From: Galaxea fascicularis
Lineage: Eukaryota; Cnidaria; Anthozoa; Scleractinia; Euphylliidae
Length of the DNA: 64,000 nt
Direction: 5' to 3'
NCBI GenBank assembly: GCA_948470475.1
Contig: OX419335.1
Coordinates: 26,844,661-26,908,660, forward strand
The notes beneath the pieces were generated by a model that made no database searches, had not been told where the DNA came from, and was given only the letters and a program-made list of their open reading frames with translations. Below are positions 1,168-53,600 of the stretch, one piece after another; position 1 is the stretch's first letter, and every line of letters begins with the position of its first letter. Both the position numbers and the translations under genes were made by a program.

Positions 1168-4100
1168 GTAATCATTTTCTCTGTTGTCGTCGAGTGTTTT
1201 GGAGACATTGAGCTGGCCTATTGGCCGTTATTTTGTAAAGAGTTAATCAACGGAGAATAGTATTCATAACAGCAGTGATCACCGACGTCTTCATTCATTA
1301 ATTCGCAGTTCAAATATTTGATTTTTATGTATCATCCTTCACGGGCTTATTACGAACCCACAAAATGATCTGGTAGTGCACTCCATTGGTATCGCAGAGG
1401 TCATGACTTCGAGTCCCGCACAGTTCTGAAGTTTTTTAAGGCTTAATGTTCACTACTGTTCATGTAGTATTCTTAAATGCGAAGATAACTTACATCTTCA
1501 TTCATTAGTTGGCAGTGCAAGTATCTGATTGTCATGTATTCGCACCAATGGAAGCCATTATTTGTACAAAACCTGCGCTGTAGAGGTTATCCGAGTGCTG
1601 GAACAAACTGTACATTAACTTGTCGATAAGCAATATTCAAAAATGGAGGGAAGGTGCCAATTGACAGCAAAGCAGCTAATGAGCAAATGTGGGCAAAATG
1701 CAAATAGAGGGGGGTAACCATGGCAACCTCCCACGGGTCACCTCCCCCAGGCACCTGTCACACTGAGTTCTCAGTGGAGAATAAGTATACTTACCTAGAC
1801 ACAAGCCCCCCCCCCCCCCCCATGAACCACGAGGTGGGTGGGATGGGGCAAACCCAAGGCAAGGCGACAACGCAAAAGGCAAAGCAAAAACCACGAGGGC
1901 AATGAGCAGAGCAATGGCACAACTACGCATGCCGGCAGCGATCACCCGCTGGCCAATAGCAGATCTCCCAGTTAACTCTGATTATTGATAATCTCAGTTA
2001 ACAGTCAGACGTGTCCGGAATAACCCCTGTCATCAGTTTTAGTTAATGGTTTTAGCTTTAGTCTGCTGTAGTTGCTACAGTAGAATTTCAATTCAGAGGG
2101 CACCTTTGGTACTTGTCACGAATTGTAATTTGTGTCCAACCCCTTCGCTGGTTAAAAAGGATTTTGGGACCCTGAAAACATGTCCCAGTCCCCTGATTAG
2201 AGTTTTCCCCTCATGGATAGAAAGATAATGTAAACTTTTTTTTTTTCGGAAAGTCTGTACCCTGAATGAAGGTGTCCTAAAATGCGCATTTTAGTAGGTA
2301 CATTGTGCCAATGCCTCTGTAAAAACGACGGATGTGTAAATGCTATTTGCTTTGAGTATTTTAGCCCTAATTGAGTACTTTTAAAATTTATTGATTTCAG
2401 CAATTTACCAATATCTAAGCGTAATTTCTTATTCGATGCCTTATTTGCCCCTGTCCTCTTATACGATGCCGAAGTCTGGGGACATATGACAATGCCAATT
2501 TTAACAAATGGGAAAAAGACCCAATCGAGAGATTTCATTCACAGTTCTAGATATAATATCTTAACTTGAACAGAAGAGTATCAAACTACTTTTTGCTAAG
2601 GCAACATTTGTCACCACCGATACGAAGCGCTCTTGTTTCGCAGCTTGTTTCTCAGCGTGCCTGTTCTGCTTCATGGCTTAAAGAACTAAGTATACACATC
2701 TGCTGCGTTATTGTTTCGCAGCGTACTTACTTCGACTAGCTTGTGCTGAGGCACCGTTTGTCACCACCTGACTGCTAAATAGTCGGGTCACGCTCAGTCA
2801 AGATAGGTTCAGGAGCAGATTAGTGCGATTTTCACTTCCGGCAATCTACTTCACTTCCGTTTCGCATAACACAAGCTGACTTCCGGTAGACGGGTCGACG
2901 TTAAACGACCGGACTCAATTCGTGTGTATTGGACATGGATGATCAAATGTGGTAGCACGTAATGAAAATGGAAGACCCCCTCAAATTAGTTGTGCTGTCT
3001 AGAATGATAAAGTTCTGGCTACACCTTCTCAAACTTCCGAAATCAAGCACTGCTGCACAGTGCCCTCTAATATCAACGCAATTAGCAGCATCTGGAAAAC
3101 AATTCTTCGTTCTTACAACTCACGAGGTGTTAAAACAATATACTACCAACTTTGATTATGACCTCTTAGCCATGATCACTACCAACGTGGATGTGCAAAA
3201 AACTAAAAAAATCCTTATCTAAAATAATAAAAAGAATAACAACTAACCTGGAAAATCCCCAATCGCAAATTATTAAGTGCAACAAAAAACTTAACTTTTA
3301 CTCTACATTCAAAACGGATGCAACTCCCTCCAATTCACTAGAACTTATTACAAACCAGAAACATAGGCGGGCAGCAGCAAAATTAAGGGCAGGTAATCAT
3401 TTTTCTATTTAATAGCATAGATACATTTATTTGTAGAAAATTAGGCTACTTTATATACAAAGCTTTTGAACTAAGAAACGAACCAATAGACGTACGAATA
3501 ATTAAGTCCTTAGTATTAATTTAGATTGCTTATATCCTACTTTTTGTAATACCTTTTTTTCCTATTTCTCTCCTTTTTCTCTTATTTGTGCAATGCCATT
3601 TGTAACTGGGAATGCAAATAAATACTTGTTGATGATCTGGTCGAGGCATTTTACCCTTATACCCCTATTTTCAGGACCAGAATCTGACTGTCGCAACGTC
3701 CTAAAGGAAGATGGACAAGAGATTTTGATGTTGGCACTGTCTTCCCTTGAAGCTGCAGTAGGATGTCTGATGGATGGGTCCATACAATTTCAAACGTTGT
3801 CCATAATTCGTAAACATTCTAAGAGATTTCTGTTGCTTTCTGAGGAAATAAGCAAGCAGAAAAGTGAACATTTGCAATTAAAAATGTTGTTGGATCAACG
3901 CATCGTTGAACAAATTGCATTTCTGGAGGAACGGGACAAAGTGTCTTGCTTCATCAGGATATGCTCTCTGATCAAACAAGGTAACAGGAATGACTGAAAC
4001 TATTAGCCTTTTGTCGTCTTAAGCATTAACTGCGTTGGTGGAATTGGAACAGTACTTGGCTCTGAAGCAGTTAACTTACACATCAAGTTTTCTGATCTAG

Positions 4101-7100
4101 GCAAGAAGTCAATTTACGCTGTTTACCCTGAGTGTATATGGATGCTCATAGTTTTCTCAACTGCTTTTCTACTTAGGGAAGGGCTTAAAGCTTAAAACTC
4201 TCTCTTTGGCACAAAAGCCAATTGTTTTGCCTCCGGCCAGTTGGGATTCTTATCATGTTCTGCTTGTTTAAATTACTTGTTTCATGTATTTGCTCGGTCC
4301 CACTAGCCTTTGTGCTAAATATACTGCCGAGGGTAATTGAACAAAAAGGCTAGTAGGCTATTACATAACCTTTTATTTATTTAAAAGGTTACGTAATAGC
4401 ATTGCGTTAAAGTGAACACTTCTTGCTCTGGTCTTTGTCTGTTTGTGGTGTTTTGAAATTGTTCCTGCTAACTGTTTTATAGCTTTTTTGTAGTAGTCCG
4501 CTCGTTGTCTGTTGTATCTTTGGGAACCTAATTGGCCCTAGGTTTCTGAGCATTTGCAAGCAGCTAATTGCAAGTATTTCTCCAAGAGAAACGTCTTTCT
4601 CAATATTTGGAAAGCACAACCTTGCTAACCTGTCCACCAAGACTGGACTGACCTCTGGCCGTATTATGATGGGTGGAAACAAAAAAATCATTCAGTGGCC
4701 AACCTTAAGTTGCATTTCCTAGTATCTTTATAGTTATTTGATTTACTTTTCTCGTAGTGGATCTAGATGAACTGTCAAAGCGGACACAGTATGACGCTTC
4801 CCATTTGCCCATCAAAGATCTCGTTCAGTCAGTGGTTGTTGGAGGAAAGACTTTCCCACTGGTGAAATTTTTTGGGCTTTCTCCAAAAGCCAAGATGATG
4901 ATGTCATCTGTCAGCAAGTTAATGAACAGTGTCTTACTGCGGCAATTTTGGAAAGAAAATAGCGATAAGGCATTAAAGCTGACAAGAGAAAGAACAGGAC
5001 GGAATATCTCCCTCAGCGTTGACGATGTTGAGGCGATGGTTTGGACACCGTCAAATGAACAGCTGCGGTCTTTGCAAACGAGTTTCTTAAGTGGTGTTAT
5101 TTCCTTTGAAGAAATTGATAAGGCCTTTAGAATGCTCAAGGAAGGTAATGACCTCGCTAAGGAAATCAAGCTTGTTACGTCACAAAATGGTGTTCAAAGT
5201 CAAGCCACTGAAGCATTTATCAACCAACGCATTGAGCAGATAGATCAATACTACAAGTTGCAGAATTGTATTGACACTGCGAAGAGCATCCTTCAGTTCA
5301 AAACGTCTCTTAGACTTACGGGAAATTTCCAGCTGGTGGAGGACCTGTGTAACCAGGTTTGTTTGTCTTTCAAATATTTGACATCTCTGATAACGTTTCT
5401 GGTTCTTTTTCATCTTTTTCATACCTGTAGAGAGTAGGTAGGTGGGTAGTAGGCCTTTGTTAGATATGTGTTAATTGTGGGTGATACTCCCCAGCCGCCG
5501 GTCTTGTTGTGGTGGAGCTAAGTGTCCACTGTTGTTTCTACGTTCACTGTGTCATCCCTGACATTTCTCTTTTCTTAATGTAGATGAATGATGAGTTCAA
5601 AAAGCGACCTCTGAACTCCATGAATGAAGCTTTGAAGAGGACTGGTCGATCACTGTCCCAATTAACGCCCAGTCGTATAACACTGGACGAAAAAATGGAT
5701 TTACTAGGGTTTGTCAAGGTGTGCAAATGTGCTGCAATTTTGGGGCTCTAAATTTGAACTAAATTTGTACTTGCCGTAACGTGAAGGTAAACTCAAGCAT
5801 TTGTTTCTGACGAATTTGCATGCAAATATCACGTAAATATAACATTTGCATAAAATTTACCTCGCATTTGCTGCCAAGCTAAACCTTGAATTTTTACACC
5901 ATTTCATCAAGCATTTGCTCTCTGTGCAAAAGTGGCATATTTACTATTAATGTAAATACAAGTAATTATGGTGCAAAGCAATTTGTTTGCAACATTTTTC
6001 AACCACATTTACTTACAATGTAAATAAGTACCTTTGCATTGAATACACTCTCATTTGCCAATGGAGCAAAACTGTTCATTTGCTATAAATTTGCATTGAC
6101 TTCAAACGAAAAAGAAATTAATTATTTTGCTCACAATTGCTTAAGAGCAAATCTTTATTGAAGCTGGTGCTTCAAATTTATAGAAATTAGCCTGTTTTGC
6201 TACCAAGGGAAATCTTTAACTTTCATGTACAAGTTTGCTTACCATTTTTTATCATTTTAAAATGGCAAATCTGGTGGCAAACTTGCTACAAAACATTTAA
6301 TAGGTGGTTTGCAGCCAATCTCTAGAGACACAGATAACAATGGTGAAATGTACAAATGCTGGTGGACGAACAAAACGAGCTAATGAGAGATCTATTGTTT
6401 ACCGTCCATTAGCATGGTGGCAATGACGTAACATGAAAACCACCTATTTACACCAGAATCTTAACACAATTATGATATGTACATAATCATCTTAATTCTT
6501 TAATTTTTGCAATAGGAACAATTAATTGTCATCCCAGCCTAATTAATCAGGTCTCATATGAAACTTATGTTCAATGAAAATTAATACTAATTGATAATTG
6601 TTGAAAAGTCAGGTTCCTTGAATAGCATTCAATCAGCTGCAATTGTCATTGATTAACATTGTTTATCATTTTTAAAATGGGATCAATGTCTGACCTACGA
6701 AATGCTTGCTTTGGTGTATACAGACCTTTAACATTATCTTCCAAGTGTTGATGGCAACGAAACAGGAAAGTATCTTATTTAGAAAGACTAAGCCTATCAA
6801 CCTATAATTGTTTAATCATTACACCAACAATTACCGATATGAACTAACTTATGCCATACATGCATCATCAATCAGCTTTTGCTTGATCAGTGATGAGTTT
6901 CATGAATTAATGTCAAAAGAAAAGCTGCTAACACACACATCTGAACCTTGATTTAGTAGCCACCTATTTAGTGGCAACCCCATGTCAAATACATAGTATG
7001 GCTCCTTATTGAAAATGCTGGTAACAGATAAGAGACTGAAATGAAAAAAAAACTGTTACCATCTTGTGGTGAGTTTTTTGTCACCTAGTGTGCTGTATAT

Positions 7101-10100
7101 TTTTTTGATTTTCTAGTAACAACCCTATAAACCTGTCACGCTAATATTTCTGATAAAAAGTAAAAAACCCCTATAAAGCAGCCACTTGCAAGTTCCCCAA
7201 GGGCGGCCGGAATAAAATTTGATGCTAATGAAATTGGGTGTGAATGTGCTTGATCTATTTAACTTTCCCAGAAATCTGAGGGAAATAATAATTTAGGCCA
7301 CTTTAGGGGTCTTTTTGGGCCTAACAATAATCCCCTTAGAAGCTATTTACATGAGCCAGGCTGACCTGCCCCAATTCATGCCATTGTCCTAGTTATTTGC
7401 AACCCTTGAAGTTTTTGGACCTCTGTCTAGATCCAAATAAGGAGCCTTAAAGGTTCAAACCTGGATCTGCAAGCCAGTTGCAAACATGTCACATATGAGA
7501 AAAAAAATGAAAAATGTTAGGTACCAAAGTGCATAAACAAAATAACAATCAGCCCTCATTATTAAAGGTACCATTCAAAATAGCAAATAAGCAATTAATG
7601 TAAATCAAGTCCAAATCCATTGGTTTGATGACACCAGACCAAAGGTCATCTTAGCAAACAGTCAACCCAGCTCATGTAATCCACCCCTTATTGAAAAATC
7701 CAATTAACAAACAATAGTGGCAGGCCTCTGCCTACCACAGATATAACATTTTATTACTTTCATAAACACTGCAAACAAATCTTGCACATGGAGATGATTA
7801 TTATTTTAGCTGTTACCACACAACACTGACAAATTGTTTCAATTTGGGCTGAAAAAATTCTCTACAATATAAATCATGTGTTATATAAATCATGTCTCCA
7901 AAAATCAAGTCACAATAATTCCTTTGAGACTGTCATATATAAATTTAAACTTGTAAATAGCTTTACAAATCAGAAACTTTAGTATACAATTAAAGAATGG
8001 GGTAAAAGAAATACTTGTCACTTAAAAGCACTGACTAACAAGATGTGCCATTTCGTCAACTGCCAACCTACATTGTGCCCTTGTAAAAAATGTAAATGCA
8101 AATCTTATTTATAGTGCTTATGTACTTAGCTATACAAGCACTAAGCTTAGCTACATGTAGTTTACAGGTACATGTATGCCACTGAAACAAAGGAAACAAA
8201 TATTTCAAATAAACGTAACATACACTGTAGTAAAAAATCCCAAATGGCAGAAAGCAGACCAGTTGGCTATTTACAAAGCATGACAGGGGATTTAAACTCG
8301 GGACTACTGAGAAACAAGTCCCGCTAGTGGCAGGGTGGAGGCCTTGAACCCGAGACCTCCAGATTACAACACCAGCACCCTAAACCAAGATTTGGTGACC
8401 ATTACAAATTTTCACCATTCACGTTCAGAAGCAAACAGGTTCAGGTTCAGAACCAAATAAACAGTTTCAACAGGATCACCTGATAAATAAATTTCTTGAA
8501 GAAAGTATTTATAAGATTTAAATTTATCATGCATGTCCTGATGCAGCCTGACGGTATCTTTGTCTTTGCTTTTATAGGATAGCACCAAAATCTCATTATC
8601 TTATAGATCAACTGTTGCCTTGATACTAAGGAGGAAATGTATAAAGTAAATGCAACACCACAACTGAGTGTAAATGTAACAAGTTTGATCCAATTACCAG
8701 CACCTGGATACTAAAAGTAATAACCACACAAGTTACTGTAATAACAATTGTGAATTCCAGCATAATGATTCAAACAATAAGAATAATAAGTATTAAAATA
8801 AATAATTGTTCATGTTTCCAGTGCTCTATAAAGGCAACACAAGAATTACTACAAGGTGGTTAGCACTTTGGTTATTCTCTGTTGTTATTCTAATTTGTGG
8901 TTTTCCATCTTTTTCTTATTCTTTTTTTTATATATAGATTTTAATTTTCTTGGATCATTGTTAATTTCAATTAATAAATAAAAACAATTTTATTTATGAA
9001 ACTGTCGCTATGAAGCTGACATACTGTCTTTACAGAAACACCTGTATTAATCTGTTGACTTCATCCAAAGCTTCAAATCACACATTTTATTGATACTGAG
9101 AACAGGGTGTATGCAACTGTAGCACCACAAAAGCCCTGACTGACAAGATGTGCCATTTCGTCAGCTGCCAACCTACGATGTGCCATCGAGAAAGCTTTCA
9201 GAGCTCTTGTGGGCATTCAGTGGGGTAATGCCTAATATCTGTCCAATTAATGATCAGATGCAATAAATTGAACAAGTCTGGGTAGGATAAAGAACTGTTC
9301 CCCCCGCCCCTGAAAAAAAAAAAATACAAAAACTAAGAAACAGTGAACAGCTTCAACAGGATTGTATGTCAGTAGACATATATCATCACTTGCTATGAAA
9401 TTTTAATTGCATCTCTAGTTCATCTATTATATGACTTAATTGTGGTCTTAACTCAGGATCATTAGGAAGGAACTTTTTGCCCAAAGAACAAAGAAAGTGG
9501 CGTTGAAGGTATGTACCAACTGCACAGACCACTCTTCCAAACAAGAACACATCACTGGCATGTGGACTGGTACCACATACAATTTCAGGAGCAATGTGAC
9601 CATGTCTCCTTTTGTAAAGTTCTCGTTCTGTAGGTGTGAGATGTTTCACAAGGGAACCAGCTGCTGTTAAAGCTATGCATTTGCCAAAGTCAATTAATAT
9701 GGCATGGTACTCATTGTTCAAATGTGAGATCAGGACATTATCTGCTTTGATATCCCTGTAAATGAATCCTTGTTTATGCAGATAAGATATTGCCTGAGCC
9801 AACTGATTGATCAAGGTCAGCCAAATAACCAGTGAAAGGTTCAAACTGTTGCTCTTCAGTGATGAAGATATTGTGTATGGCTTATCCAAAACATGGTAAA
9901 AGGACGATACTAAATGGTAAGGCTTTGACAGAGTGCACACCCCAATAAGAAGAAGGAAATTTGCATGTTTGAACTTTGACAAGACTCTTGCCTCCCGTTT
10001 AATCTCCTCAGCTGTAGCAGAATGAAATGTTTTTACTGCAACAGGATTACCCCTGTAAAACATCTTATTGCAGCAACCAAACACACCAGAACCAAGATGT

Positions 10101-13100
10101 ACTTTCACCTCCATTCCAGATTCATCTTTTGGGGGCTCCAAAAGGGCACGCGTCCCAAATCGAGAGGCAGATAGTAGTTGTCGACTTTTCTCAAGAAGTA
10201 ACAAGTCTTTGTTTACCTTCCATTTTAAATATAGTACTTCCGTCCAAGGAAAAGCAGTCGCGCGCTGTTTTTGCTTCGTTTCTTTCCGCAATCGTTCGGC
10301 GAGACCCTCGATGACTGCATTCGCTTTGAGCTCATACTCGTCATTGCCTTCCTCTTCTTTCTTTGATTTCTCACACGACGACGCTCGCTAGCGGTATTCT
10401 CTCTTCATTTAACTAAGACACTCAACTCTTTTCCGCCGAAACAAAGTAAAGTGCGCCAAAATTAAGGTGGGGCGTCGTGTATGGGGTCATAATGTACCCA
10501 CATGTATGTCGACCGCTGGTTAACGACGTCAGACTGTTTCAGCCAATGATTGTTCTGGAGTTTATTCACAGTGTTGTGAACTGGTTCACGTGGGATAATG
10601 CATAATGATAACTAATGCTTAAATCTAATGACCTCGTGTTTCACTGAATCTTTTAAAAAGTATCTTTAGTTGTTGGATTCATAGTGGAGTGATAATGAAG
10701 GGTGAATTCGAAACTTGTGTACGTATCAACTGACTGCCAGTCAGCGGTGATCCATTGACAGGCCAGGCTTGCGCGACTCTCACGTGGAAAACGCTTTGAC
10801 TTTGCATTGGCTCAAGCTGAAAGTGTTGACAGAGAAACGCTTTTGAATTCACGCGGCCTAGTTCGTCCTTTCTCTCGTTCGCCTGATTCTTCAAAAGCCC
10901 ACTTTAGTTACGTACGTGTAATACATCGAACATGGTACGACTGGCTCCCGATTAGCCTGGTAAGCATCGTATTAAAAGCATGATTCTAAATTTAATCGGA
11001 CGTTCAGCAACCGATCAGGTAATAACCTTACAGAACGAGCTGTAGGCCGCTTTTATTCCTCGAATTCCTTGGCGGAGAGTGAACATGAAGAGCTGGAAAT
11101 GGACAGAGCATCCACATCATCTACTGCTGGAACGCTACGCGAGAATCGCCGATCAACTAAAGCTACTCCTCCTCCTCTGTCGAATTCCACACCAGTCGCT
11201 GCGCTGCAAGAGCTCACAGTAAGTCAGTTTGTTTATTGCAACTACCTTTTAATTGTGCAGTTTAATATTTTTGTATCTGGCACACCCTGTGAAAGCTACC
11301 AAGTTTTGGTCTTATTAACAGGGTTCCACTGTATAAACAACGTTGGTTTTGAATGATAGCATGCAAAGCTAGAGGGACTGCAAAAGTATGTGTAACACTT
11401 CATAAAAAACTAATTTCGTTTATCTTGTGAGTGATGACGCTTGCCTGATCTTCAAACTTTATGGACCATGCTGAGTGACCACAACTTATAACATTGAACC
11501 AAATTGCAGGCAGTAGTTTTCATAAAAATAATTCAACAGTTTTACTTGAACATTATTATTGTGAGATCTTAATTTGGTGCATATTGTGAGTGATGGCCTT
11601 TGCCCGATCTTTAAACTTTATGGACCATGCTGAGTGACCACAACTTATAACATTGAACCAAATTGCAGGCAGTAGTTTTCATAAAAATAATTTAACAGTT
11701 TTACTTGAACATCATTATTGTGAGATGTCAATTTGGGGCATATTGTGAGTGATGGCCTTTGCCCGATCTTTAAACTTTATGGACCATGCTGAGTGACCAC
11801 AATTCATTATTGAACCAAATTGCAGGCAGTAGTTTTCATAAAAATAATTTAACAGTTTTACTTGAACATTATTATTGTGAGATCTTAATTTGGTGCATAT
11901 TGTGAGTGATGGCCTTTGCCTGATCTTTAAACTTTATGGACCATGCTGAGTGACCACAACTTATAACATTGAACCAAATTGCAGGCAGTAGTTTTCATAA
12001 AAATAATTCAACAGTTTTACTTGAACATTATTATTGTGAGATCTTAATTTGGTGCATATTGTGAGTGATGGCCTTTGCCCGATCTTTAAACTTTATGGAC
12101 CATGCTGAGTGACCACAATTTATTATTGAACCAAATTGCAGGCAGTAGTTTTCATGAAAATAATTCAGCAGTTTTACTTGAGCATTATTATTGTGAGATC
12201 TTAATTTGGTGCGTATTGTGAGTGATGGCCTTTGCCCGATCTTTAAACTTTATGGACCATGCTGAGTGACCACAATTTATTATTGAACCAAATTGCAGGC
12301 AGTAGTTTACATGAAAAAATTCAGCAGTTTTACTTGACATTTTAATTGTGAGATCTTAATTTGGTGCATATTGTGAGTGATGGCCTTTGCCCGATCTTTA
12401 AATTTTATGGACCATGCTGAGTGACCACGATTAATATTGTTGAACCAAATTGCAGGTTGTAGTTTTCACGAAAATAATTTAGCAGCTTTACTTGAGATCT
12501 TAATTTGGTGCATATTGTGAGTAATGGCCTTTGCCTGATCTTTAGACTTTATAGACCATGCTGAGTGACCATGATTAACATCACTGATTGATCCAAATTG
12601 CAGGCAGTAGTTTTCACGAAAATAATTCAGCAGTTTTACTTGACATTGTACATTTTAAGTTTGAGGTCTTAAGGGTCTTAGGATAGTGTTTGCGATCAGC
12701 TTTAATGTAGACATAAATGGATGACAAGTGTACACTGTATAATACTGTGTTTCTAAACAGACAATAACTCAAACTCTTAAAATAATATTGTAATATTATT
12801 TTCTTCTGTTATTTTCAGCTTTGCTGATCCAATAATTAACAAAACTGTCAACTGTGCACTTCTTTATGGTGTCCTTAGTATGGACCCTGTCAAGACACCT
12901 ACCAACACCAGAAAGGGTATGCTGTAAGTTGTAACTTTACTTGATAACATTTGTTAAATCTTCATTGATCATACAATGTAATGTGAATGACTAGAAGCAT
13001 TCATTGATGACCTTGGCACAGAATTGGCTAAAAACTGTAAAATGCTCATGAATTAACCCCTTTAAGCTATGCCTTGAAAAAATCACGTACAATATGAGGT

Positions 13101-16100
13101 CAAAGTTGTGTATACATGTAAATGTTCTCCCAAAACTGTTTTGACAGCATTTATTGAAGCTGCATAGATAAATATTGAGAATTATGAAAGTAACTTGTTT
13201 TAGACTGTTGATGGCTTAGTGAACTTTTTACATTCTTCACACACATCCCAGTTGATCTAAATTTCTACAGAATATTCAATGAGAACGTTTTGATTTTTTT
13301 TCCCTGTCACACCGCTATGAATGTATGAAAGACAGTCATCCAGGGTGGTACAAAATATATGTACCAGTGCAGTTCAACTGGTCAGCAGTTCTAATGGGGG
13401 GAAAACTTCTCTTACATGAAATACTTACCAGATCACAAATTTTGCTTTTTACTTGATGAAAAATGGCCTAAGAGTGTTGACCATTAATAAAAGTGTTGTA
13501 CATTTCTAGCTACTCTCATTCCAAAAGCTTTTAAAAAGGTGCTGAAAAATCATGTACAAATCCAGTGCATGGTGTTATTCTGTTCATAACATTTTATTTA
13601 TGAAGTACATGCACACAAAACTTAGATTCTCAAACTGAGGCTATCACTCAATTCTGAACAAATCTTATTGTTGTAAATATCTGTGACTTTCAGTTTTCTT
13701 GTATGTTTAATTTGCCTTTTTTCTTTTTGTTTTTTACACAGAAAGGAAACCAGAGAGTCAAGGCCTTAAACCTCTCTATTTCCTTCACAGCAGAAGAGAA
13801 AGAGCAGTACAAGGATTTTTCGACCAAATAATTCAGCTTTACATTTCCACTTCAAATTCCATTTCAATCTGCAATATTATAATTGTGATAATGGCAGTCA
13901 GACAATGCTAGAAATGTGTAATGTCGTTTTTTGAAATTGTATATTCAGATTATTAAAATTTCTCAGTTTAATTTATTATTGACATTTGTATTTTGATCCC
14001 AATAGCTTTATTTAGAAAACATGAACAAATGTAAATAGTTTGCTCGACTTCGCTGCACAAAGCAAATATGCGCAAAAATACTTGTTGGCACACCTTTGCT
14101 CTCCTAAACAAACGTGCGCAAAACTACGTGTTTACGCGCCTATGCTACCCTCGGCACGCCTTTGTTATTGTGAACAAATATGCACTAAAGCACTTGTTTG
14201 CACGGCTTTGCCACCCAACCAAATGTGGACAAAAATACGTGTTTGTACGCCTACGCTATCCCAAGCAAAATCATGCAAAAGTACTTTTTGCACGTCCCTG
14301 CTGTCGCAAGCAAATATGCGCAAAATACCAGTTTGCACGCCATTGCTATCCTTAGCAAATGAGCGCAAAGGTAGTTCTGCTACACAGAGCAAAGTTGGTC
14401 AATTCTTTAGAGTTTGCTCACATTTACTATACAAAGCAAACTTGATCAAAATTTGGATTTTGATTATATTTGCTTATCTGAGCAAACGTATTCAATACTA
14501 ATAATTTGATCACATTTGCTACACAAAGCAAACTTGTTCAATACTAAGAAGTTGCCAGCAGTTATCAGCCTATGCAAACTTCATCAATACTACGAGTTTG
14601 ATCACGTTTGCTGGCCCAAGTAAACACTTCAAATCCACGCTTTTGAGCACATTTGCAATGCTTTGTAAGCTTGCTGGTAATAATAAGTTTGCATGTTTTC
14701 ACAAGGGCAGCAAATGTTGTGCAAAAAAGCAAATCTGCTCAATAATTTGCCTCATATGTAAACAGGCCCCAAAGAAAACCATTTGCATTCGCATTTGCTC
14801 CATGGGCAATTGCAAAGAAAATTCATAGCTGTACAATACTCTTGCACAAGAGCGAAAATCTTAAACAAATGTGGCATTTACGACCATTGCTATGGGTAAC
14901 AAATGTGGTGTAAAATCGATCTGTGCTCTTTGACAAACTGAGGCAAATATGTGCAAATGTGGTATTTGCTTTAGTTTTGCGATAGATTTGCTACCAGTGT
15001 AAATCCATTTTTTCGTCCAGTGTAAGCTGCCTTGATGCTATTGCCAGATGCCAAGAGTTGGTTGGCTGGTTGAAGGAAACTATTAGAGGTGATACACGCC
15101 GAAAATACGAATGTTATACCTCTGAATTGTGATCATCCCCATCTTGAGAATGGTACCTACGTAAAATTGCGTGGATGGGTAGCATATGATGATCTCACCA
15201 AGAAATAGTGCCCAGGATCGTCCTAAGGTTTGAAAGTTTGTGAAGTGACCTCATCACATTTTAAAATCAAATTAGCAAATTAGCAGCTCGTTTCCTCATA
15301 TTTCCTCCACCAACGATTGGTGTTAAAGTGCCGGACCGTATCACAGAAACAGAACTCCCAAAGATGTTTAAGGTATTTAAGCAATATTTGCAGTTGCAGC
15401 TGACGTCGAAGAAAATGCCTGCTTTTTTTAAAATTGCGACTTTTCTCATTAGGTCCTCAAGAACTTAAAGTGCTTGTGGATTTGGCTATTATATCAGCTG
15501 GAGAGGCGGACTTGGAAACGGCTAAGATCACCTGCCTGCACACAAGCTGTCTCGGATTTGCTCCACTTATTTTCGACTTGAAACGTTCCTTTGGCTTTGA
15601 CGAGTTAATGAAGACTTGCAAACCCGTGTGGAGTGCAGTGGATACAGACCCCACCCTCCCGCAGAAATTGGTATGACTTCTTACTGCTTTGAAAAATGAT
15701 CATTGTTCTAGTTTCAAAAATAGATCAACGTCTCTGCTGCTTTTTACTTCAAAATGCCTCCGTTTTCGACAGTTTGTTTCTTGCAATTTCTAGTTTTGTG
15801 AGGCTCCTCCTTCCGAAGACGAACTGTTAAAGAAAGTTGTAATATCCTGTTTCATAATTAATCCTATAGGTTTCTGTTTAAAATTTTTATTAACGTGTTT
15901 GATTTCACATTTTTTCTGCCGTGTTAAGTATGACACCAGTCGTCACTTAGATTGGCTAAAAAGTGTTGAGACGTCTCATGGTTCAGTGGCCAAGTCCTCC
16001 CTTCGGGAAGCTCAGGCTATTAACGAACAGGGTGTGTACCGTGTTGGATGTCTCAAGGAAGATGCAAGCACTGCAATGGAAGAGTTAACCATTGATAAAG

Positions 16101-19100
16101 TGGTTGAGCTAAGTGTACCCCAGGGTGAAGAGGAGGAACGCAAACTTTACTCTGTAGATGACTTAAAGGATTTACAAAGTAAGCTGATGCTTATCGCGGC
16201 TAAAGCATCACGTAAAGAAGAAGTAGACCGGTTTGTTGATGTAAGTTTTCACCATAAGGGTATATCACTTTATAGACTGTTTATTTATTGCTTTCCCTTT
16301 TTTATTGAGATATCCAGACGTTCATTCTAGATAAAATGACTTAGTGTCATTGAATAATCCTCATTTATTTTCCCCTTTTCTTCCTAATGAAGTCAAGTGA
16401 AGTTGCTTATGGAATGCGTGCGTTTTGGTCATTTATTTACAGGGTGGCGTTAACACTTGTGGGCCAAGGTTTCGTGCCTACGTATAAGGCTAGGCTCTTG
16501 TCTCATGCCAGTTATTGCATTTATTGCACAGGAAATGGAAGACTAATCAATGGCATCTTCCGTGCAAATATCTTATGCTGCTTGTTACCTAGCGTTACCT
16601 GTATCCGTTGTTCATACCCGGCGACAGATATCTGGAGTCACGTTTATAGATGTTGGTCTTAAGTGTATTCATGAAATGTTGAGATGACCGCACTTAAACT
16701 TCTCTTTCTTCATAAGGTGACTTACTTTGTTTTCCCCTGAAATGAAATAGATTCTACAGTGCGTCCGGCGACTTGGTGCAGCATACATCTCTCTTTGCCA
16801 GGCTGGAGAGGTCGGCCACCTGAACTGGAAATACGAGTTTCAGTGCACTCCGCAGCTTGACGGCAACCGTTCCGTGACAGGCGATCTGGCAAAGCAAAGC
16901 GATCATATGGAGCATTGTCTTCAGCAGTGGAAAGATGAATTACACACTAAGAGGTTAAAGTGCAGTGAGCTAAATCACTTCACCACGAGACAGTTACTGT
17001 TCCTTCGAAACAAACTGGCAGTTGTTCGAGGAAGGGGACCCAGAGCAGTGGAAGACATTCCGTTGGAGGTTTATAACCTGTTGGAGAGTGTGCTTCCGGG
17101 AGTCGAGCCAGGCATTCTGAAGTCTGCTCTACTGTCTTGTGGCATTTGCACTCAAGAAGCGGGTGAAACCATCATGAGGTCATTTGGTCCGGGTAGCACG
17201 TCTCATCGCACAGTGCCACTGCAACAATCCATGTCACAAAGGAGGCCGACGCATTCGTCAACAGTTGACATGTTCCAGTCACTCGTAGCACATTTAGAAT
17301 CGATTGTTACATACTCTGATCCCGAAGAGATTGCGATTGCAGCAATGGTTTCGTGCAAAGACGACGTCAGTGAAAGTGATCTCATCGTGTGGTGTGTGAA
17401 GAATGCCAACAACAAAAATTTGATAAATGCCAAGTACTCAGAGGCAGTTAATGATCCAAGATATTCAGCACTGATCGATAAGGAAGGCAACGCAGGATTG
17501 GAAGAAGAAGTGTAAGTACGTAGTAAAGAATGTTTGGGTTAAATGTTGTGCAAATGACCAAGGGCGATGTCACTTAACTTTAACCTACGTTTAAGAATTG
17601 GGGCCGTTGGTAATTGGCCTCAGCTGTTGCGGTGACCCGGATATTTTCCATTTGCATTATTTCATTTGCCTTAGTTGTCTTTGTTGGCGGTTGGGATTTT
17701 CCTTACATGTTTTAGTTTATATGACAAACTCCATAATTTGTGAAATGAACGCCAGAAATAACAAAATAGACAACCAGTTTACAAGAAATTTATTAGTGTT
17801 TCACTGAACATTCAACCGCTGAGAAGTCGGTCGAAAAAGCGAAGCACAGCCAAATTTGTTTCGCCGCCTTCAAATGTTTAAAAGGGCATACTTGTACCAT
17901 AGCCCATCATAATTTTAAGCCTATTGTATTTTAGTGTTTTTCTAGTAGTTTGTACAAATATGTATAGATTACTTCATGGTTGGTGAGCGCTTACGATTAT
18001 TATTCACAACAAGTGAATAAAAATCGTACAAGCGAACTAATCATGAAGTAATTTGTTTATTATATAAATACTGAGATTTACTCAGTCAATTGACTGCAAA
18101 AGATCAACGAGCCGCGAACACAATGTCGGCAGCTTTTTACTTTGAGCTAACTCAGTGTGCAACATGCCTCAAATACTGAATTAGAAACTGCTTTAAATAC
18201 CTGAAAAAAGGTAAAAATTTCCTTTTAAACGGTTCCTTTAAAGTATTTTCTTTTAAAGAAAATGTTACGTTTGACAGCTCAACACTTTCCCGTAAACATT
18301 AGCTCACAACGGGCGTTCCAATCCAATTTGGAATCCCGGTCCAGTGCTTTAAGTCTTTTTTACCTCTTTTGAAGAAGGCTCTCCTCAGTTTCTGGAATTG
18401 GCAAGGTTGTCGATTGATGAAGGCTGTTGATAGAAATGCTGAATTGACCAGCATGAATAACAACACCCGTAAATAGCGACGTGATGTTGAAAAATATGCG
18501 AACAAACAAGGTGAATGGAATTGAGGTCGACCATTCAGCAAAGCGACATTTTGTAGGGCTTTGTTTTGGAGTGTTTGTTTTCGTTTTCTTGGCCTTCAGT
18601 GAATTCCTCCAATGAAGGAATATCTGAAGCTCTTGAACAGCTTTAACGAGAAGCAACGAGTTAAAGGGAATAACGAAAGCTGTTCATTCATCATTGGCTT
18701 GGGAAGCTCTCCTGAAAGGCGGGAAAACCGATACGATTTTTTCCACCGAAAAAATTTCGTCTGCGGCCAGTGATTGGTCAGACGATACTTCTTCACAAGT
18801 GAGAAAAAATCGTCCGACCAATTCTAGTTATTGGCGGACCATTTTTATTTGACAACTCTGTTTACAGTATATCGCAGTACTAGTACTTATATAATAAGTT
18901 AATTTATCATTTTCATTTCAAGCCCTTGTGAAGAGGAGCTGGAGACCGAACCAGATGATTTACCAGAGCCTATGGAAACTACTTTCGCTCTTGACCAGAC
19001 AGCAGATGGGAAATTCTTAAGCCTTGATGAGCTGGGAAATCTTCTGAGTCAACTGGCTTCACAAGGTTTGATATTGTTATTGTTGCTTTAACCAAAATGT

Positions 19101-43100: not shown

Positions 43101-46100
43101 GTAGGTTATCTACCGTGTACTGCACCCAAACCCCACACCTTTGAGGTGCAATGTAGATTCCCTCAACGACTACTTTGCAAGTACAGCTAAGAGGACCGCT
43201 GGTGTTGAAACATCGGATACTTAAGAAGGTCTCATAGACTTCGTAGATGTATTACTTCCCGAAGAGTGTCTGACCCAGGAAATGACACCTTTACCTTAAG
43301 GCCTGTTACATTCCATGACGTTTCACGTGAGCTGAAGCTCCTACGGTCTGACACATCAACTTGCCCTGACCTAACTCCAGCAAAACTTTTGAAGCTGAAT
43401 AAATTGCGTGCCCTTTGACTAACATAATTAATTCAATCATTTAATTGTGTGACTTTCCAGATAAATGGAAACAAGCTCGTATAACTCCAATCCCAAAGGT
43501 GGATAGTTCTCAAGATAACAATGATTTTCGACCAATCTCTATATTCCCTGTTTTGTCTAAAATCTGCGAGAGGCTTATTCACAACCAAGTTGTTGAGTTT
43601 TTGGAAAATAACCATCTACTTGAGGATAACATTTCTGGATTTAGGAAAGGCCACTCAACACATCTGTTTTTATTACGTATACGTGATGGCATATTAATAT
43701 TGAAAGCATAAAACCGGAGTGAATGCACTCTGCTTGTCTTAGCTGACTTCTCGAAGGCTTTTCACACTGTAAAGTATAGGTCTATTGTTGTAGAAAATGA
43801 ATGCTCTTGGATTCTCAAGGTCATACCTTAAATGGACAGTCAACTACTTGTGTGGAAGAGAGCAGTTTGTTCAAATTGATGACCGTATTTTAAAAGCATT
43901 AGCTTGGGAGTCCCACAAGGCTCGATCATGGGTCCTCTCATTGTCAACTTATATATTGCTGATCTACAAGGGAAAAGTGATTGTGCTTGCTATCAATATG
44001 CTGATGATACAACCATATATCAAGCATCGAAGCCTGGTGAACTTGCATCTTGTACTACCTTAGTGCGACGTAATGTGGATAAACTTCAGTGCTGGGCGAA
44101 CGAAGCTAATCTGGTCCTAAATCCTTGCAAAAGGAAGTACATGTTATTATCTTCAAGTAAACTTTCTTCCTATCACGAACTTAACAACACTGACGTTGAT
44201 CTAAGAGTTGGAACTACATCTTTAGAACGTGACCTGCATTGACCACCACATTAATTAAATGTGAAGTAAATGCTAAGCAAGTCTCAGCCTCTTGCTTTCA
44301 CACTCTTGGAATCTCAAAGGAATTGAGGAATTTTCTTCCATTTAACATTCGTAAACAGTTAGTTCAGGCCCTATAGTACTTTCCAAGTTGTATTATAATT
44401 GGTGGAACAGAGAATTAACTCTGAAGTGTAAATTAAAGTGCTAATAGAAACCCATGAAAAACCCACTGGGCGTTAGCCCTAGTAAAGGGTATCAGGGAAC
44501 CACACGAGGCAAAGAAAAAGTTCTTATGACCTCGGTGGGAATCGAACCCACGACCTCCGGATTAGATCTACCGTTGCTCTGCCGACTAAGCTACGAGGTC
44601 GGACAGAGAACGTCGGGGACGATTGAGATGGTGAATCGCGGCGAAGAGAAAGTAAGGGTACATATATATGTTGTGCCGCGTAGCACTATAAACACATACA
44701 AGTGGCGGAACAGAGAATTAACTCTGGAATGTAAATTAAAGTGCTAATAGAAACCCATGAAAAACCCACTGGGCGTTAGCCCTAGTAAAGGGTATCAGGG
44801 AACCACACGAGGCAAAGAAAAAATTCTTGTGACCTCGGTGGGAATCGAACCCACGACCTCCGGATTAGATCTACCGTTGCTCTGCCGACTAAGCTACGAG
44901 GTCGGACAGAGAACGTCGGGGACGATTAAGATGGTGAATCGCGGCGAAGAGAAAGTAAGGGTACATATATATGTTGTGCCTCGTAGCAATATAAACACAT
45001 ACAAGTGGTGGAACAGAGAATTAACTCTGAAGTGTAAATTAAAGTGCTAATAGAAACTCATGAAAACCCCCCTGGGCGTTAGCCCTAGTAAAGGGTATTA
45101 GGGAACCACACGCAGATACATTTTATAGTGCTACGCGGCACAACATATATATGTACCCTTACTTTCTCTTCGCTGCGTCCCCGACTTTCTCTGTCCGACC
45201 TCGTAGCTTTGTTCCACCACTTGTATGTGTTTATAGTGCTACGCGGCACAACATATATATGTATTATAATTGTGTTGTTTATCATAATCTACGACATTAC
45301 TTTGTTAAACGCCTACAAAGAATTCAAACATCATGTGCGAGCTTTGTTGTAGGTAAACTTGTTGAAAGATAGGATATCATAAAGCTAAATTTCTTACCCG
45401 TTAAAGAACACATTGAATGGCCGTTGTTAAAGTCAGTTCACAAGGCGATTTTTTCTCATGAATGGCCAAGTTACTTGCGACTGAAGCTCACTCTTTCTCA
45501 TTTAGGATCTCGATGACGTCACGCGTGCCCTCGTACTTTCCATCGGCGTGTGTTACCATGCGCGACTTCAAGAAAGAGATCACTTCCGTCATGCCATAGC
45601 TCCAAGCTTTTCTTATCCTTGTCAGCTCCCAGGTGGACATCAGCGCATTCTGCAAGAAATAACAAGGTATGTTGGGGTTAATTTCTGGACTATTCCAACG
45701 CATATCCCTGTCCAGAATCCAAGGAGTCCCTGTACGGGCAATTTTTGATGCTTTGTTGTTGGAGGCCAACATAGGTTTTCCCTTGTGCCAGTTTTTATAA
45801 TGCAGTGGACATGTTCAATATGATCTTCGAATAAGGCCTTTTCTTACATTGTTTCGAGCCATAAGCGGCAGTAATTAAAGGTGTTTTCAGCCGTACATCA
45901 TTTTTCACAGTACTAAGGACAAGTCGAAATATGTGAAAATGATCAGTGCAAGTATCAGAACAACCAGAGACAACTAGCTGCCCTCTTCAAATTGAATTCT
46001 CTCGTACTATAGTTTTAGCTCCGTGAATGGTGAAAGAGTGTAAATCGTTACAGAGGTGATGAATTCTCTCCATTCCATAAAATCTTTATATTGCACAATT

Positions 46101-47632: not shown

Positions 47633-50600
47633 TACAAAACAACAATGTTGCGTCTTGTTGGCCAACAATGTTGCGAGCGTTTGCACGGGGCTTTACGGTA
47701 CGTGCTCCAAAGGAGATTTCTTAAAAATAAAACGGATAAATTGGTTCCAAAGTAACTTTGCATTGGGATTATATTTCCAACCAGGTCCATATGGTGTCAT
47801 ACCAATGCAGCCCTCTTTCAACCACAGACGGGATCAAGGCGACGTTTCGCCAGTGCAGCAACCTACAGAAAGGTAAAAACCCAGACAAGTACGTGTCAGT
47901 AGTGGTGCTAGATGAGGTAGGCCTGGCGGAAGACTCTCCTCTGATGCCCCTGAAAACGCTGCATCCGCTACTGGAGGACGGGGTGGAAGACCAGAAGAGT
48001 GACAGAGTGGCCTTCATTGGAATATCGAACTGGGCTCTGGATCCTGCGAAAATGAATCGCGGTATTATGCTGTCACGTGACCTTCCAGATACCCAGGAAC
48101 TGGTGGAAAGTGCTATGTAAGTAAAGTTCGTCTTGCTTCAAGGAAGGAAGACCGTATCATTACTGAAGCCAGGATACGTTATCCGTATGTAAGGGATACG
48201 TTTGATTAATTAGACAACTTTGATATTTGAAGTACTTTGGCAGTCTTTTACATTAGGAATTGACAGTGTAAATGTTTATTACGAAACCGTGGGTCTAGAT
48301 TTTTTTTTATCATGAACCATATGGTAATTCTCGCCCATAAACGTGAGGTACACTGGTTTAAAACTATTGCAGTAGTTCTTGTAAGAAGCGTAATGTAAGG
48401 CAACAAAAAAAAGTTATGTAGCATCAACAAATTATCGATGTAAATAGACACCCTCCGAACGGGAAGAGAAAGAGACTTGAAGCTATTTTCGCGTTCATAT
48501 CCCTTTTTGTAGTGTGCTGAGTTTATTTAATATGACAACTCGTGACCACTTGCTTCTTCAGGGGCATATGTTCAACTGACGAACGAGTACAATGCTTTGT
48601 CGCTCCGCTCATGAATCCTCTTGCACGGGGTTATGAGAAGCTGTACGGCAGTCAGAGAAAGTCAAAAGCTCTTCGAGAGTCCAAAAAAGATGAGTTCTTT
48701 GGGCTCCGTGATTTTTACAGGTAAAATTGCATTAAAACGTTCATGTAAAATACTGGAGCATTGTTACGCGGCAACTCTTTCCGTTCAAATTCCCTTGGAC
48801 TGACACTCTTCTATTCTACCATATTCATTGGAATGTTTTTCATTTGCCCCAAGCCTTGTGAAAATGGTGTACAAAATTGCCGAGAAGCTGGGACGTGAGC
48901 CAGATTGGCCAGAGATCGAACATGCCATTAGAAGGAACTTCGGTGGATTGGATGAGATGGATCCTGTTAAAGTCTTCAGGAGACAGTTCAAATATCTGAG
49001 AAACCACACGGTGAGAAGATCTGGAAACTACTTGATTTTGTCTTTGCTTTGCTTGCCACTGATTTTTCTCACTTCGTTTCGTTCTCTCTCTCTTCACCTT
49101 GCGTATATGCGTTATTCACCGAACTGACACAATTGCGAAAACTAAATGGGAATTCTACAAGGGCTCAAGGTGGACTAAACTAATTTTCCTCTGTTGTAGA
49201 GGAGAGAAAATCACGATGCGTTCTCTGCAGTGAACCTGATCAAAGCCAGTCTAGAACGTGAAATCTCCAGAGGGGCAGAGGGAAGAGACAGTCAGAAAGT
49301 GGATAACACGAAGAGAGGGTAAAATAAATAAAAGGCACAAGTGGAAGTGTGCTTGAACTTTTCAGAGTGCTTGATACGTCAGCACTCGGATGGTTTTGTC
49401 ATACTATGAGTTAGAGTCCTGTTAGAGCCTTACTAGTTGCCATTATCTCCCTCTCGTTTAGAGGCAAAGGTGTGAAAGGGCCCTAAACGGCTCATTAGTT
49501 GAAAACATTCGATTTTCCGTCCGACGCATTTATTTTATTCTGACAACACGAGGAATGACGCCATTACGAAAAGATGTCCTGTATCCGTTTGGTATACGGT
49601 GCCGGCTTAGATTGGCCGAACTTATACTAGAGACAAATTATCCGTCTAGACGAATTATCCGTCAGACGGATAATTTGTCCAAGTATAAATCCGAAGACGA
49701 ATTTTGACGAAGAATTTGTAATTACTTTCGAGGAAGCAGTGGCTTTTCCGGACCCATCTCGAAACAGGCATCCCAGGAAACCTTGCGAAAATATAGAAAT
49801 CAGTCCGTCTTATGTGGAAACTTCGTCAATAAACCGTCTACGTTCCGTCTAGATATAAATTTAGGGGCCGTTCACACTTAGCTCGTTTTAGGATCGAATT
49901 AGTTTAGACCAATCCGAAACTGATCCGAAGCCACTTTCCTTGATTGTTCATACTATATATGACTAAACAGACGAAGTGTTCTCGAGGGACTGGGCTTAAG
50001 TTGTAGTAATTAAAGATGGCGGAGTTAGGAGTGACAGCAGGACTTACAACGATGGACTTAAGGCAGAGGTTTGAAAAACGGCAAATGGTAGCAAGAAAAC
50101 TTCATGCAATTATTCGACGCTACGTTCGACGAAGACAGAGGAAGATCTCTCTGTTTATATTGTTTATCGGCAAATGTTTGAGAGATCGAGCACGACAAAG
50201 GCGATTCTGGATTGAGCCAAGTAGAGGGAAAAGTCTGTATTGGGAAGAAGCAGTAAGCCAGTGGAAAGATGATACGCTTTGGCTCGAAAACTTTCGAATC
50301 TCGAGACAGTCCTTTCTCTTTATTTGTCATGGGTTACAGGACACTCTGAAGAGGAAAGATACAAGATTTAGGAAAGCAATAACTGTTGAAAAGAGTAAAG
50401 CCATCTGTCTTTGGTATCTTGCCACTGTAGAAGATCTGCGTTCCCTTGGTTGGAGATTTGATGTTGGAAAAGTACTGTCTGCCAAGTAGTAAACGAAGTC
50501 TGCCAGGCTATTGTAGATGTGCTTTTGCCGGGTATAATCAAATGGCCCACTGGAGATGACTTAAAGACAGTTATAGAAGGCTTCAAGACAACGTGGCGTT

Positions 50601-53600
50601 TCCCTCAGTGCGCGGGAGCAATTGATGGAACTCATATACCTATTGTTGCCCCAAAGGAATGTCCAGCTGATTACTATAATCGCAAAGGTTTTTATTACCT
50701 TGTGATGCAGGTTGTTGTGGACCATACGTACAGGTGAGGTGTCAATTGATTTTAAAATAAGGCTACACTGCCTTTTTTTTCAGACTCAGTAACGGAAGTG
50801 GAAGTGCGCAAGTCCTTGACATCATCATTAAGTGTTATTCTCATGTTATAGGTTCACCGACGTGTACATCAAATGGCCAGGAAGGGTACATGATGCACGT
50901 GTCTTTAGCAATTCAGGCTTGTATTTAAAGGGTCAACAGGGAGACCTGTTTCCGGATGTGAGTGCCAGATAGTCATTTTGCCTTAATGTTACTTCAACAC
51001 ATAATATCTGATGATCAAGTGCAAGTCATTCATGGAAGTTGTAAAATTTATTTCACTTTTTTAGAATGCGTTTGTGAGAACATGTTCAAGGGCTTCCCTT
51101 AAATAGAGAATAATTGTTTGTACTTCCCAAGTTGATGAACTATGATCACAATTCTATTCTGTTTAGTGGACTGAGGGTGTTCATGGATTTGATGTTCCCC
51201 TGGTGATAATTGGGGATGCTGCTTATCCCTTGTTACCCTGGTTAATGAAGGGATTTCAAGACAGTGGCGAGTTGACCATGGAACAACAACAGTTCAATTC
51301 AGTTCTGAGCATTGCCAGAATGGTGGTGGAGGGAGCCTTAGGGCGTTTAAAGGGTCGTTTCCGCTGCCTCCTTAAAAGAAATGATACTACATTGAAATAT
51401 TTGCCTGTTAAGATTGCTGCGTGTTGTGTTTTACATAACATTTCTGAGACAAGAGGGGATGATTTTCAGGAGGAATGTGGGATACATGTAAATGATGACC
51501 ATGATAATGAAAGCATTGCCAGTACTGCAACCCAAGGAGACACAACAGCACAAGAAATTAGACGAGCGTTGACTGTTTTAATAAATGAACAAGTGCAACT
51601 GCTTTAAAGAATGTTAAGTCATTCCAGATAGAAAACCTTCTATAAACAGCTTAAAATTAACAACCTATGCGAACATTTTAACTAGGGAGGAAGGTTCACA
51701 GGGTCAAGGACTGTTCCTGTATTGACTGTCACCCAACCTGAATGCTTAAAGCATTGTACAAATTTAACTGCTGTGAAGTATGTAAAACCGTTGTGAAAAA
51801 ATCCTTAACACGACTTTTCAACAAGCATCTGAGCAAGTGTCACAGTCTTTTTTTCACAGCCTGTACAAGGTTTGGCTGGTCTCTTCATCATAAACGAACT
51901 GCTGAGTATGGGCAGTATTCTGACCAGCAATAGCTCTGGCCAACAGAGCCATTGAATCTGTGTATGCTTGAAGCTCCAGCTTTCTGAGATCAACATCATC
52001 TTTACTTTGTTGTTCAATCAATGTTAGGAATTTATCATCAGCCTCTTTTTGGTGGCTTGTAAAATCAGCAAGAACGTTTTCATACCCAGCCTGTTTAGAT
52101 AATTTTCGTTTTCGTTGGTTGTTTGCCTTTTTCCCTTCCCCTGTGCCAGTTTTGGCATTCTTGTTCCTATTTTCCGGCAGCTGGTCTTGCACCAAGGGCC
52201 CTTCCTGTGGATCATCGTCACCTGTTATAACATAAACAAGAATTTATTTATGCTTGGTTTTGGTATTCATGTGGATTTATTAACATAATGATTATTGTTG
52301 TCATCGTAACAAACTATTTCAGTGTGATTTCATGTAACAGCTTAGGCAAGAATTCGTGTTCCTTATACACTACGTTGCTTCTGGTTGCTCAGAAATGTTT
52401 GCTGCTTTGACAAGGAGCTTCTACTTTACAGGTCGCTTAAAAGGCAGGGGTAGGATAAGTTTTCTTTTCTTCTATTTTGGTATAAGGACTTCTTGACCAA
52501 CAAGAATACATTTCTCTATTGAACACATTTTTTGTATTAGGTGCTAAGCCTGAGTTTTGAAGGTAAAATCTACAGTACCTCCTTCCAATAAGGTTTCCAT
52601 CTCATTAACTATAGCCATCTCAAAATTACAGTAATAATAATAGTTTATAATAGTTTATTGATATCCCTCTCGCAGCCTAAAAGGCTGAATTACAAGGATG
52701 GTCAGTGACAATAGCACAAGACACTACGGTATAAAGACAGTCAGATAAATAATGATATAACTATGATTAAAGCACAAATAACAGAGAAAACATAACAGAG
52801 AAAAGGATTACAACTGGTCTTGATACTTAATGGTGCAGAAATCTGCGAAACGCTTTGTCTTGGGGACAAAGCGCACCGGAACACGTTCGCCTGATCGGAG
52901 GCAGTACGGCCTGTCAATTGACACGCGAGGAATTAATGGCTTAAGGACAGGAGACGAACGGCAATCACGCTTGATAAAATTTATGCAAGCTTCTTCCCTT
53001 CTTTGGGAAAGGGCAGTGATGTCAGATTGAATTAGGGCTTCGTCATAGTGACAGTTCGGCAGAATCAGGCAGTGTCTTATTGTGAACTGATTGCTAACCT
53101 TCTTCAGTAAAGCCGCACCGAGGACACTGCCCAAAAGGTGTACTCCTGCTGTCTGAATTTCGCTTTTGTACTCACAATTTGGGCATATTTTCTCTTGGAT
53201 TTTACCTTCACCGTATTTTGCAACCATTTCTGAATATAGAAACAAAAATCAGTGTTAGTGTGGTTATTATTTGTTAAAGCTGCTATTGTAAGCCAGCACA
53301 CGTCATTTACGATCCCGCGCGTGAATGTTTAGCCCTTCGTTTGAGCCCTGCATTTGAGCCCGTTGTAGGACGAAGGGCAAATGCTCGAACTGTCAGCTTT
53401 CAAGTCTCGGAGAGATTTCCGCACAACCACATACAGTCATTAATTATACATACATCACTGTCATACTAACTCTGTTCAAAATCAAATAGAGTCACAAATT
53501 GCATGAATAATTGATGTATGGGGCTGTGCAGAAGCTGGCTAAGGTAAATAGATATGCAAGGCTTGAAATAAATAGATTTATACCGAACATCCATTCCCCT

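Follow-up and report, generated by a model that had tools for sequence, protein, structure and literature searches.

A 9.3-kb CACTA element in a coding exon of a coral RNF213-like gene and its possible removal as a new intron

The stretch of DNA analysed here, referred to as the window, comprises 64,000 nucleotides of the coral Galaxea fascicularis (C1:26844661-26908660, in a searched genome of 416.6 Mb and 170 contigs) and carries an RNF213-like gene on its plus strand. A coding exon of this gene was confirmed to be interrupted by a 9.3-kb CACTA element, inserted with duplication of a TAA target. Splice signals close to both ends suggest that the pre-mRNA may lose the element by splicing, as a new intron, with 26 codons added to the message. 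On the sequence evidence, this prediction was given an even chance, which puts it a little ahead of a broken allele.

The insertion and its empty site

The two outer arms of the element (5680-5704 and 14999-15023, 25 nt each) are 100% complementary and hold a perfect 24-bp inverted repeat, CACTGGACGAAAAAATGGATTTAC. Allowing up to three mismatches, this repeat was found at two places only in the window, while none is expected from 100 shuffles. Removal of the element and one TAA restores a 160-nt exon whose reading includes LTPSRISCLDAIARCQELV, in phase with both adjacent exons. A seven-exon model (3675-17511, 784 residues) matched solved RNF213 structures in the PDB with an E value of 2.3e-79 (nine sequences matched, alignment taken from the best one), and this alignment is gapless at the rejoined exon junction. 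A preliminary description, made from the letters alone, had reported the perfect terminal repeats, the TAA on both sides, the restored RNF213 frame and a stop at 5749-5751 on straight reading into the element; all of these were borne out. It had offered a broken allele or removal from RNA as alternatives, and to the second of these the sequence adds a specific in-frame splice prediction.

An empty site is present in a paralogue at C1:26729359, approximately 120 kb upstream on the same contig, in which the exon is uninterrupted. The 26 bases at this site, CCCAGTCGTATAAGCTGCCTTGATGC, equal the joined window flanks with one TAA, and 27 of the 160 exon bases differ between the two copies. At 29-36% identity, five remoter copies on C1 match across the site without a break. 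Among the matches listed, the RNF213-like paralogues on C1 amount to one close copy (26.73 Mb) and at least five remoter ones (30.5-31.1 Mb). The 15 genome matches listed include no second copy that is nearly identical and has the site empty; the next best copy is 62-71% identical. The preliminary description had also advised looking for an uninterrupted copy in a related genome. Of the RNF213 sequences retrieved, 22 of 34 proteins and fragments (P0036-P0069) span the junction, and neither these (0/22) nor the paralogue show an intron or insert at the site; the remaining 12 give no alignment over the junction. One of the 22, P0040, has the exon uninterrupted and then reads into the apparent next intron; its source is therefore likely a relative's DNA or unspliced RNA. 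The repeats and the duplication, together with the empty site in the paralogue, establish the insertion. The features discussed are the following (positions in the window; a dot means that no strand is assigned).

4758-5356, plus strand: upstream RNF213 exon (exon model)
5584-5680, plus strand: interrupted RNF213 exon, first part (exon model, alignment to relatives)
5678-5680, plus strand: target duplication TAA, left (sequence)
5681-15022, plus strand: CACTA element, 9,342 bp (perfect repeats, 3-bp TAA duplication, empty paralogue site)
5681-5704, plus strand: left terminal inverted repeat, 24 bp (arm comparison, window search)
5681-5718, plus strand: element sequence that would extend the left exon, followed by the donor AAG|GTGTGC (donor score 8.0)
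5705-6480, dot: left subterminal TTTGC/GCAAA repeats, limits approximate (9 + 12 matches in the 500-bp bins 5500 and 6000)
5719-14985, plus strand: predicted new intron (frame-keeping, random-end null, phase test)
5749-5751, plus strand: stop codon on retention of the element (straight read-through of the exon)
9386-10387, minus strand: protein-kinase frame in the element, 333 codons (Pkinase, E 2.3e-22)
11411-12647, plus strand: minisatellite within the element, 157 bp x 7.9 (tandem-repeat scan)
13990-14998, dot: right subterminal repeats, limits approximate, in part with a 46-bp period (20 + 18 matches per 500 bp)
14986-15022, plus strand: element sequence that would extend the right exon, preceded by the acceptor TTTTGCGATAG|A (acceptor score 7.6)
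14999-15022, minus strand: right terminal inverted repeat, 24 bp (arm comparison, window search)
15023-15025, plus strand: target duplication TAA, right (sequence)
15026-15088, plus strand: interrupted RNF213 exon, second part (exon model, alignment to relatives)
15453-15670, plus strand: downstream RNF213 exon (exon model, alignment to relatives)

The gene is collinear with coral RNF213 relatives exon by exon through the window, with gaps, and in the downstream 30 kb (15,000 bases masked) the RNF213 match reaches the last residue of the relative. In a 20-row tree the window gene groups with four Montipora and Acropora proteins (support 97/97), which points to a stony coral as host. Elsewhere in the window, pieces of a PIF/Harbinger-type DDE_Tnp_4 transposase lie in an RNF213 intron (50462-51604) and RVT_1 reverse-transcriptase pieces between RNF213 exons (43445-44239 and 61871-62506). 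A tandem repeat of 303 bp in 2.4 copies (44400-45112) contains two minus-strand tRNA-Arg(TCT) genes.

Class of the element, its family and the kinase frame

CACTA or EnSpm elements have inverted repeats beginning CACT(A/G) and make a 3-bp target duplication without fixed sequence. The repeat of the window element starts CACTGGACG, in agreement with this definition. At least 80 copies of the repeat (up to three mismatches) were found genome-wide, with 0 in the reversed control, and exact matches in viral contigs numbered 0. All 20 end pairs examined, including that of the window, show an exact 3-bp duplication, in 15 different sequences (TAA, AGA, TTA, TCA, TAT, TGA, CAA, ATA, GGC, CGG, AAA, TAC, GTA, TTG and CTG); the pairs C6:385791/395523 and C13:7509841/7524746 and unpaired ends were left out of this set. 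The copies at C14:77939-90903 and C1:12449-21772 have the same flanks in opposite orientation and probably represent one insertion on two contigs, as retained haplotype sequence, so that at most 19 of the 20 pairs are independent. Near the element ends TTTGC/GCAAA occurs 9 to 20 times in 500 bp, compared to a window mean of 2.1. A relative on C3 (L046/L067) ends in an identical repeat and carries, upstream of it, a 932-residue frame with a Transposase_21 domain (tnp2, PF02992; E 3.6e-20 in a scan of 777 residues). The left end of this relative was not found in the partly masked upstream sequence, which leaves the frame anchored at one end. The varied duplications, the subterminal repeats at both ends and the tnp2 frame beside an identical repeat support assignment of the window element to CACTA and not to Chapaev3, in line with the class given in the preliminary description. 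A transposase, which is required only of an autonomous copy, was not recognised among Pfam matches in the six frames of the window copy. It is therefore likely that this copy was mobilised by a tnp2-type transposase encoded by another copy in the genome.

Two other classes were considered. PIF/Harbinger elements have a TWA target duplication; this class was ruled out by the element ends and the tnp2 relative. Chapaev3 elements (CMC group) are described, in passages of one source, as having CAC...GTG ends and a 3-bp TWA duplication (PMC4079192). The window element shares the CAC...GTG ends and a 3-bp duplication, and its TAA fits TWA. In contrast to Chapaev3, the duplications of the family are not TWA-restricted, with TWA in 4 of 20 pairs, and the related transposase is tnp2-type, which ruled out this class as well. 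Within the family, several sister copies have repeats like the 157-bp minisatellite. One sister element (L005-L007, C3:18502323-18526227) holds a nested family member (C3:18507668-18519164), with 3-bp duplications on both pairs of ends, and the open frames of this sister appear retrotransposon-like by eye.

The kinase frame is not confined to the window copy. The same kinase is present in sister copies on C6 (two) and C50 with ~94% identity, and related sequence occurs in elements of other subfamilies on C12, C2 and C13 and in the tnp2 copy on C3, the kinase of the latter sharing 38.6% identity with that of the window (E 1e-56). Of the 11 family elements with a searchable interior, 8 contain kinase sequence (the window element and L032, L033, L035, L038, L040, L042 and L046), whereas L031, L034 and the L036/L037 composite yielded none. 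Outside this count stand L044 (masked) and the 3-kb and 0.2-kb loci, of which the ends only are present and which are uninformative. The kinase points towards the homologous end in both the window copy and the tnp2 copy, at distances of 3.7 kb and 3.4 kb, respectively. Kinase matches outside the genome comprise 35 proteins, the closest with 82-90% identity; the one match assigned to a named coral, Montipora capricornis, has 66%. The window kinase has YRD for the HRD motif and is two residues shorter than its relatives; sister-copy kinases also have YRD and have kept the two residues. To judge from its residues, the kinase of the window copy may be inactive.

Predicted splicing, age of the insertion and rival explanations

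According to the prediction, the element would leave the pre-mRNA as a new intron (5718|5719...14985|14986), using a splice donor 38 nt in from the left end and an acceptor 37 nt in from the right end. Together with 3 nt of one target duplication, the retained 38 and 37 nt amount to 78 nt, or 26 codons, which would place TLDEKMDLLGFVKICYQCKSIFSSSV between LTPSRI and SCLDAI with the frame kept. Sites were scored with a matrix of 31 introns of the same RNF213-like gene, built without junctions that automatic placement skipped or could not place; of the automatic introns, the one spanning the insertion was dropped, as was 16241-16759, which was restored by hand as 16241-16750. Among the 3,919 GTs of the window, the donor after 5718 (AAG|GTGTGC, 8.0) belongs to the top 0.9%, and among the 3,852 AGs the acceptor before 14986 (TTGCTTTAGTTTTGCGATAG, 7.6) belongs to the top 2.4%. 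Both lie within the range of the gene's own introns, whose leave-one-out scores are 3.4 to 9.8 for donors and -0.9 to 11.5 for acceptors; the gene itself uses a similar donor, gag|GTGTGT.

This best frame-keeping pair has a combined score of 15.6. Ends drawn at random gave a pair of at least this quality, with the frame and most of the exon preserved, in 1 of 1,500 cases for a Markov model, 9 of 1,500 for pieces from inside the element and 21 of 1,500 for pieces of the window, the last including real splice sites of the gene. The added sequence is stop-free in one of three phases only, phase 1, which is the actual phase. In reverse orientation there is no comparable pair near the ends (best donor 5.1 and best acceptor 3.9 within 120 nt). 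Sister end L007 has the same donor; L010-L013 and L018 have the same acceptor, and L005 has one of 6.8 compared to 7.6. This indicates that both sites came with the element. Retention of the element leads to a stop after 23 element codons, and skipping of the 160-nt exon to a frameshift. An acceptor at 14998, picked by eye, was dropped with a score of -1.0. A structure model of a coral RNF213 piece, considered for a loop at the site, had a mean predicted local distance difference test score (pLDDT) of 49.6 and was not used. Same-species sequence at near identity was absent from 15 matches listed, the highest reaching 82%.

Several observations weigh against removal by this pair, beginning with the fact that the pair was sought post hoc. 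A competing, out-of-frame AG precedes the acceptor by 11 nt (exon start at 14975, with a score of -3.2), and past the in-frame stop there is another strong donor, with an exon end at 5786 and a score of 8.4. Several further pairs also keep the frame; the second best of all, 5718 to 15076 (12.3), would delete 50 nt of exon beyond the site. Combined with the best donor, the acceptor at the extreme end of the repeat (15021, 3.9) yields no product that can be read. Furthermore, related ends of other subfamilies do not have this donor and several end types have no acceptor scoring 4 or more. Two other end types (L009/L014; L021-L024 and L026) do have acceptors of 4.0-8.4 located 26-37 nt from the end. 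The RNF213 paralogues could make a null allele tolerable, and the insertion could be younger than its end branch indicates, too young for visible decay.

The age of the insertion was estimated from seven copies, which are about 96.6-99.6% alike in the 0.8 kb at the right end. Of 798 positions, 5 carry substitutions private to the window copy, and its end branch is 0.0073 (0.73%), an upper bound on the insertion age, in substitutions. The preliminary description had called the insertion young because of its perfect terminal repeats. A fairly young insertion is indeed indicated by the end branch among sister copies; the reason given earlier is weak, since perfect repeats of 24 bp date an insertion poorly, being compatible with several percent divergence.

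The state of the remaining gene was assessed by comparing its exons with the relative P0051, of which 3,782 of 4,361 residues between 625 and 4985 were covered (the largest gap, 4369-4872, falls in a masked stretch, and residues 1-624 lie outside the sequence compared). No stops were seen inside the other RNF213 exons over the readable part of about 3,800 residues. Three P0051 matches with stops were read as bridging small in-frame introns, which automatic placement had missed, or overrunning an exon edge, and two P0053 matches were flagged for a stop at places that are stop-free in the P0051 match. On a script count of 4,055 codons, some of them intronic, neutral evolution of the gene throughout the 0.73% would predict some 3.3 to 3.5 nonsense changes, and the probability of finding none would be about 0.03 to 0.04. 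A gene that still works is therefore weakly favoured. At an age of 0.1%, 0.5 nonsense changes would be expected and nothing follows from their absence.

These observations bear directly on the nearest competitor, a broken allele, in which the recent insertion would truncate this RNF213 copy at 5749-5751, likely with nonsense-mediated decay of the message, and would be tolerated via paralogues or an intact other allele. The in-frame stop, the young insertion (with 0.73% as upper bound) and the close and remoter paralogues on the same contig all fit such an allele, while the stop-free exons speak weakly against it; the existence of a frame-keeping splice pair also counts against it. It was judged a serious possibility that nevertheless falls short of an even chance. 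Removal of the element via other sites was regarded as improbable. Besides 5718 to 15076, pairs from 5708 to acceptors at the repeat end (15021 or 15027) keep the frame (scores 12.3, 9.8 and 10.9), as would joint skipping of exon C (the interrupted 160-nt exon) and exon D (the next one), 378 nt together. All these pairs score below 15.6; moreover, 5718 to 15076 costs conserved exon sequence, and skipping of C and D would cost 126 residues including ELKVLVDLAIISAGE.

An assembly or haplotype join instead of a real insertion, the first of which the preliminary description had named as a possible counter-finding, can be regarded as extremely improbable. The genome does contain some retained haplotype sequence, seen in one other family insertion, which appears on two contigs (C14 and C1:12449). 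However, the window element has exact repeats, a target duplication and subterminal repeats, and the same ends recur over the genome in many copies with duplications, which makes a join unlikely; the empty paralogous site also speaks against it.

From the arrangement of the splice sites a wider hypothesis was formulated, namely that this kinase-carrying CACTA family of the coral has polarised ends, with a donor at the kinase end and an acceptor at the other. Copies landing in exons in one orientation would then be ready-made introns, and the RNF213 insertion would be a 9.3-kb intron being born. This extension to the family is speculative and was considered rather unlikely.

Comparison with known systems and biological meaning

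Removal of CACTA elements from transcripts is not without parallel. In maize, dSpm elements (En/Spm, CACTA) inserted in exons are reportedly spliced as introns (Menssen et al. 1990). The maize cases of this kind include bz-m13 and a2-m1. Like maize dSpm, the window element is a CACTA element in a coding exon with splice sites, here predicted, near its ends that would make a new intron. Unlike dSpm, its host is an animal, it measures 9.3 kb with a kinase frame and 26 codons are predicted to be added. In soybean, TgmR* is described, in passages of its source, as a large CACTA element with subterminal repeats in an existing intron of a MYB gene, removed with RNA splicing (PMC4219821). The window element is also large and has subterminal repeats; its removal is a prediction, and it lies in an exon whereas TgmR* occupies an existing intron. 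Introners are elements with terminal inverted repeats and target site duplications that create introns; according to passages of the source, some families carry splice sites and one example adds codons, and families have median lengths of 30-654 nt with 5 to over 2,000 copies as introns (PMC9860276). The window element shares the repeats and the target duplication, and its own splice sites are predicted with the 31-intron matrix; it differs in being one 9.3-kb exon insertion. A non-exhaustive literature search covering coral RNF213, coral element insertion with splicing, and CACTA elements with a kinase or gene capture yielded no paper that describes this case in its title or abstract opening.

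That several subfamilies of this CACTA family carry a kinase prompts the question of why such an element should retain one. If the element is not spliced, the insertion would be a natural knock-out of one member of the RNF213 cluster in a coral. If it is spliced, the RNF213-like gene would be an animal gene that has gained an intron from a large DNA transposon, in a case that can be dated; the empty paralogue on this contig would serve as a built-in control, and the protein would be predicted to carry a 26-residue tag.

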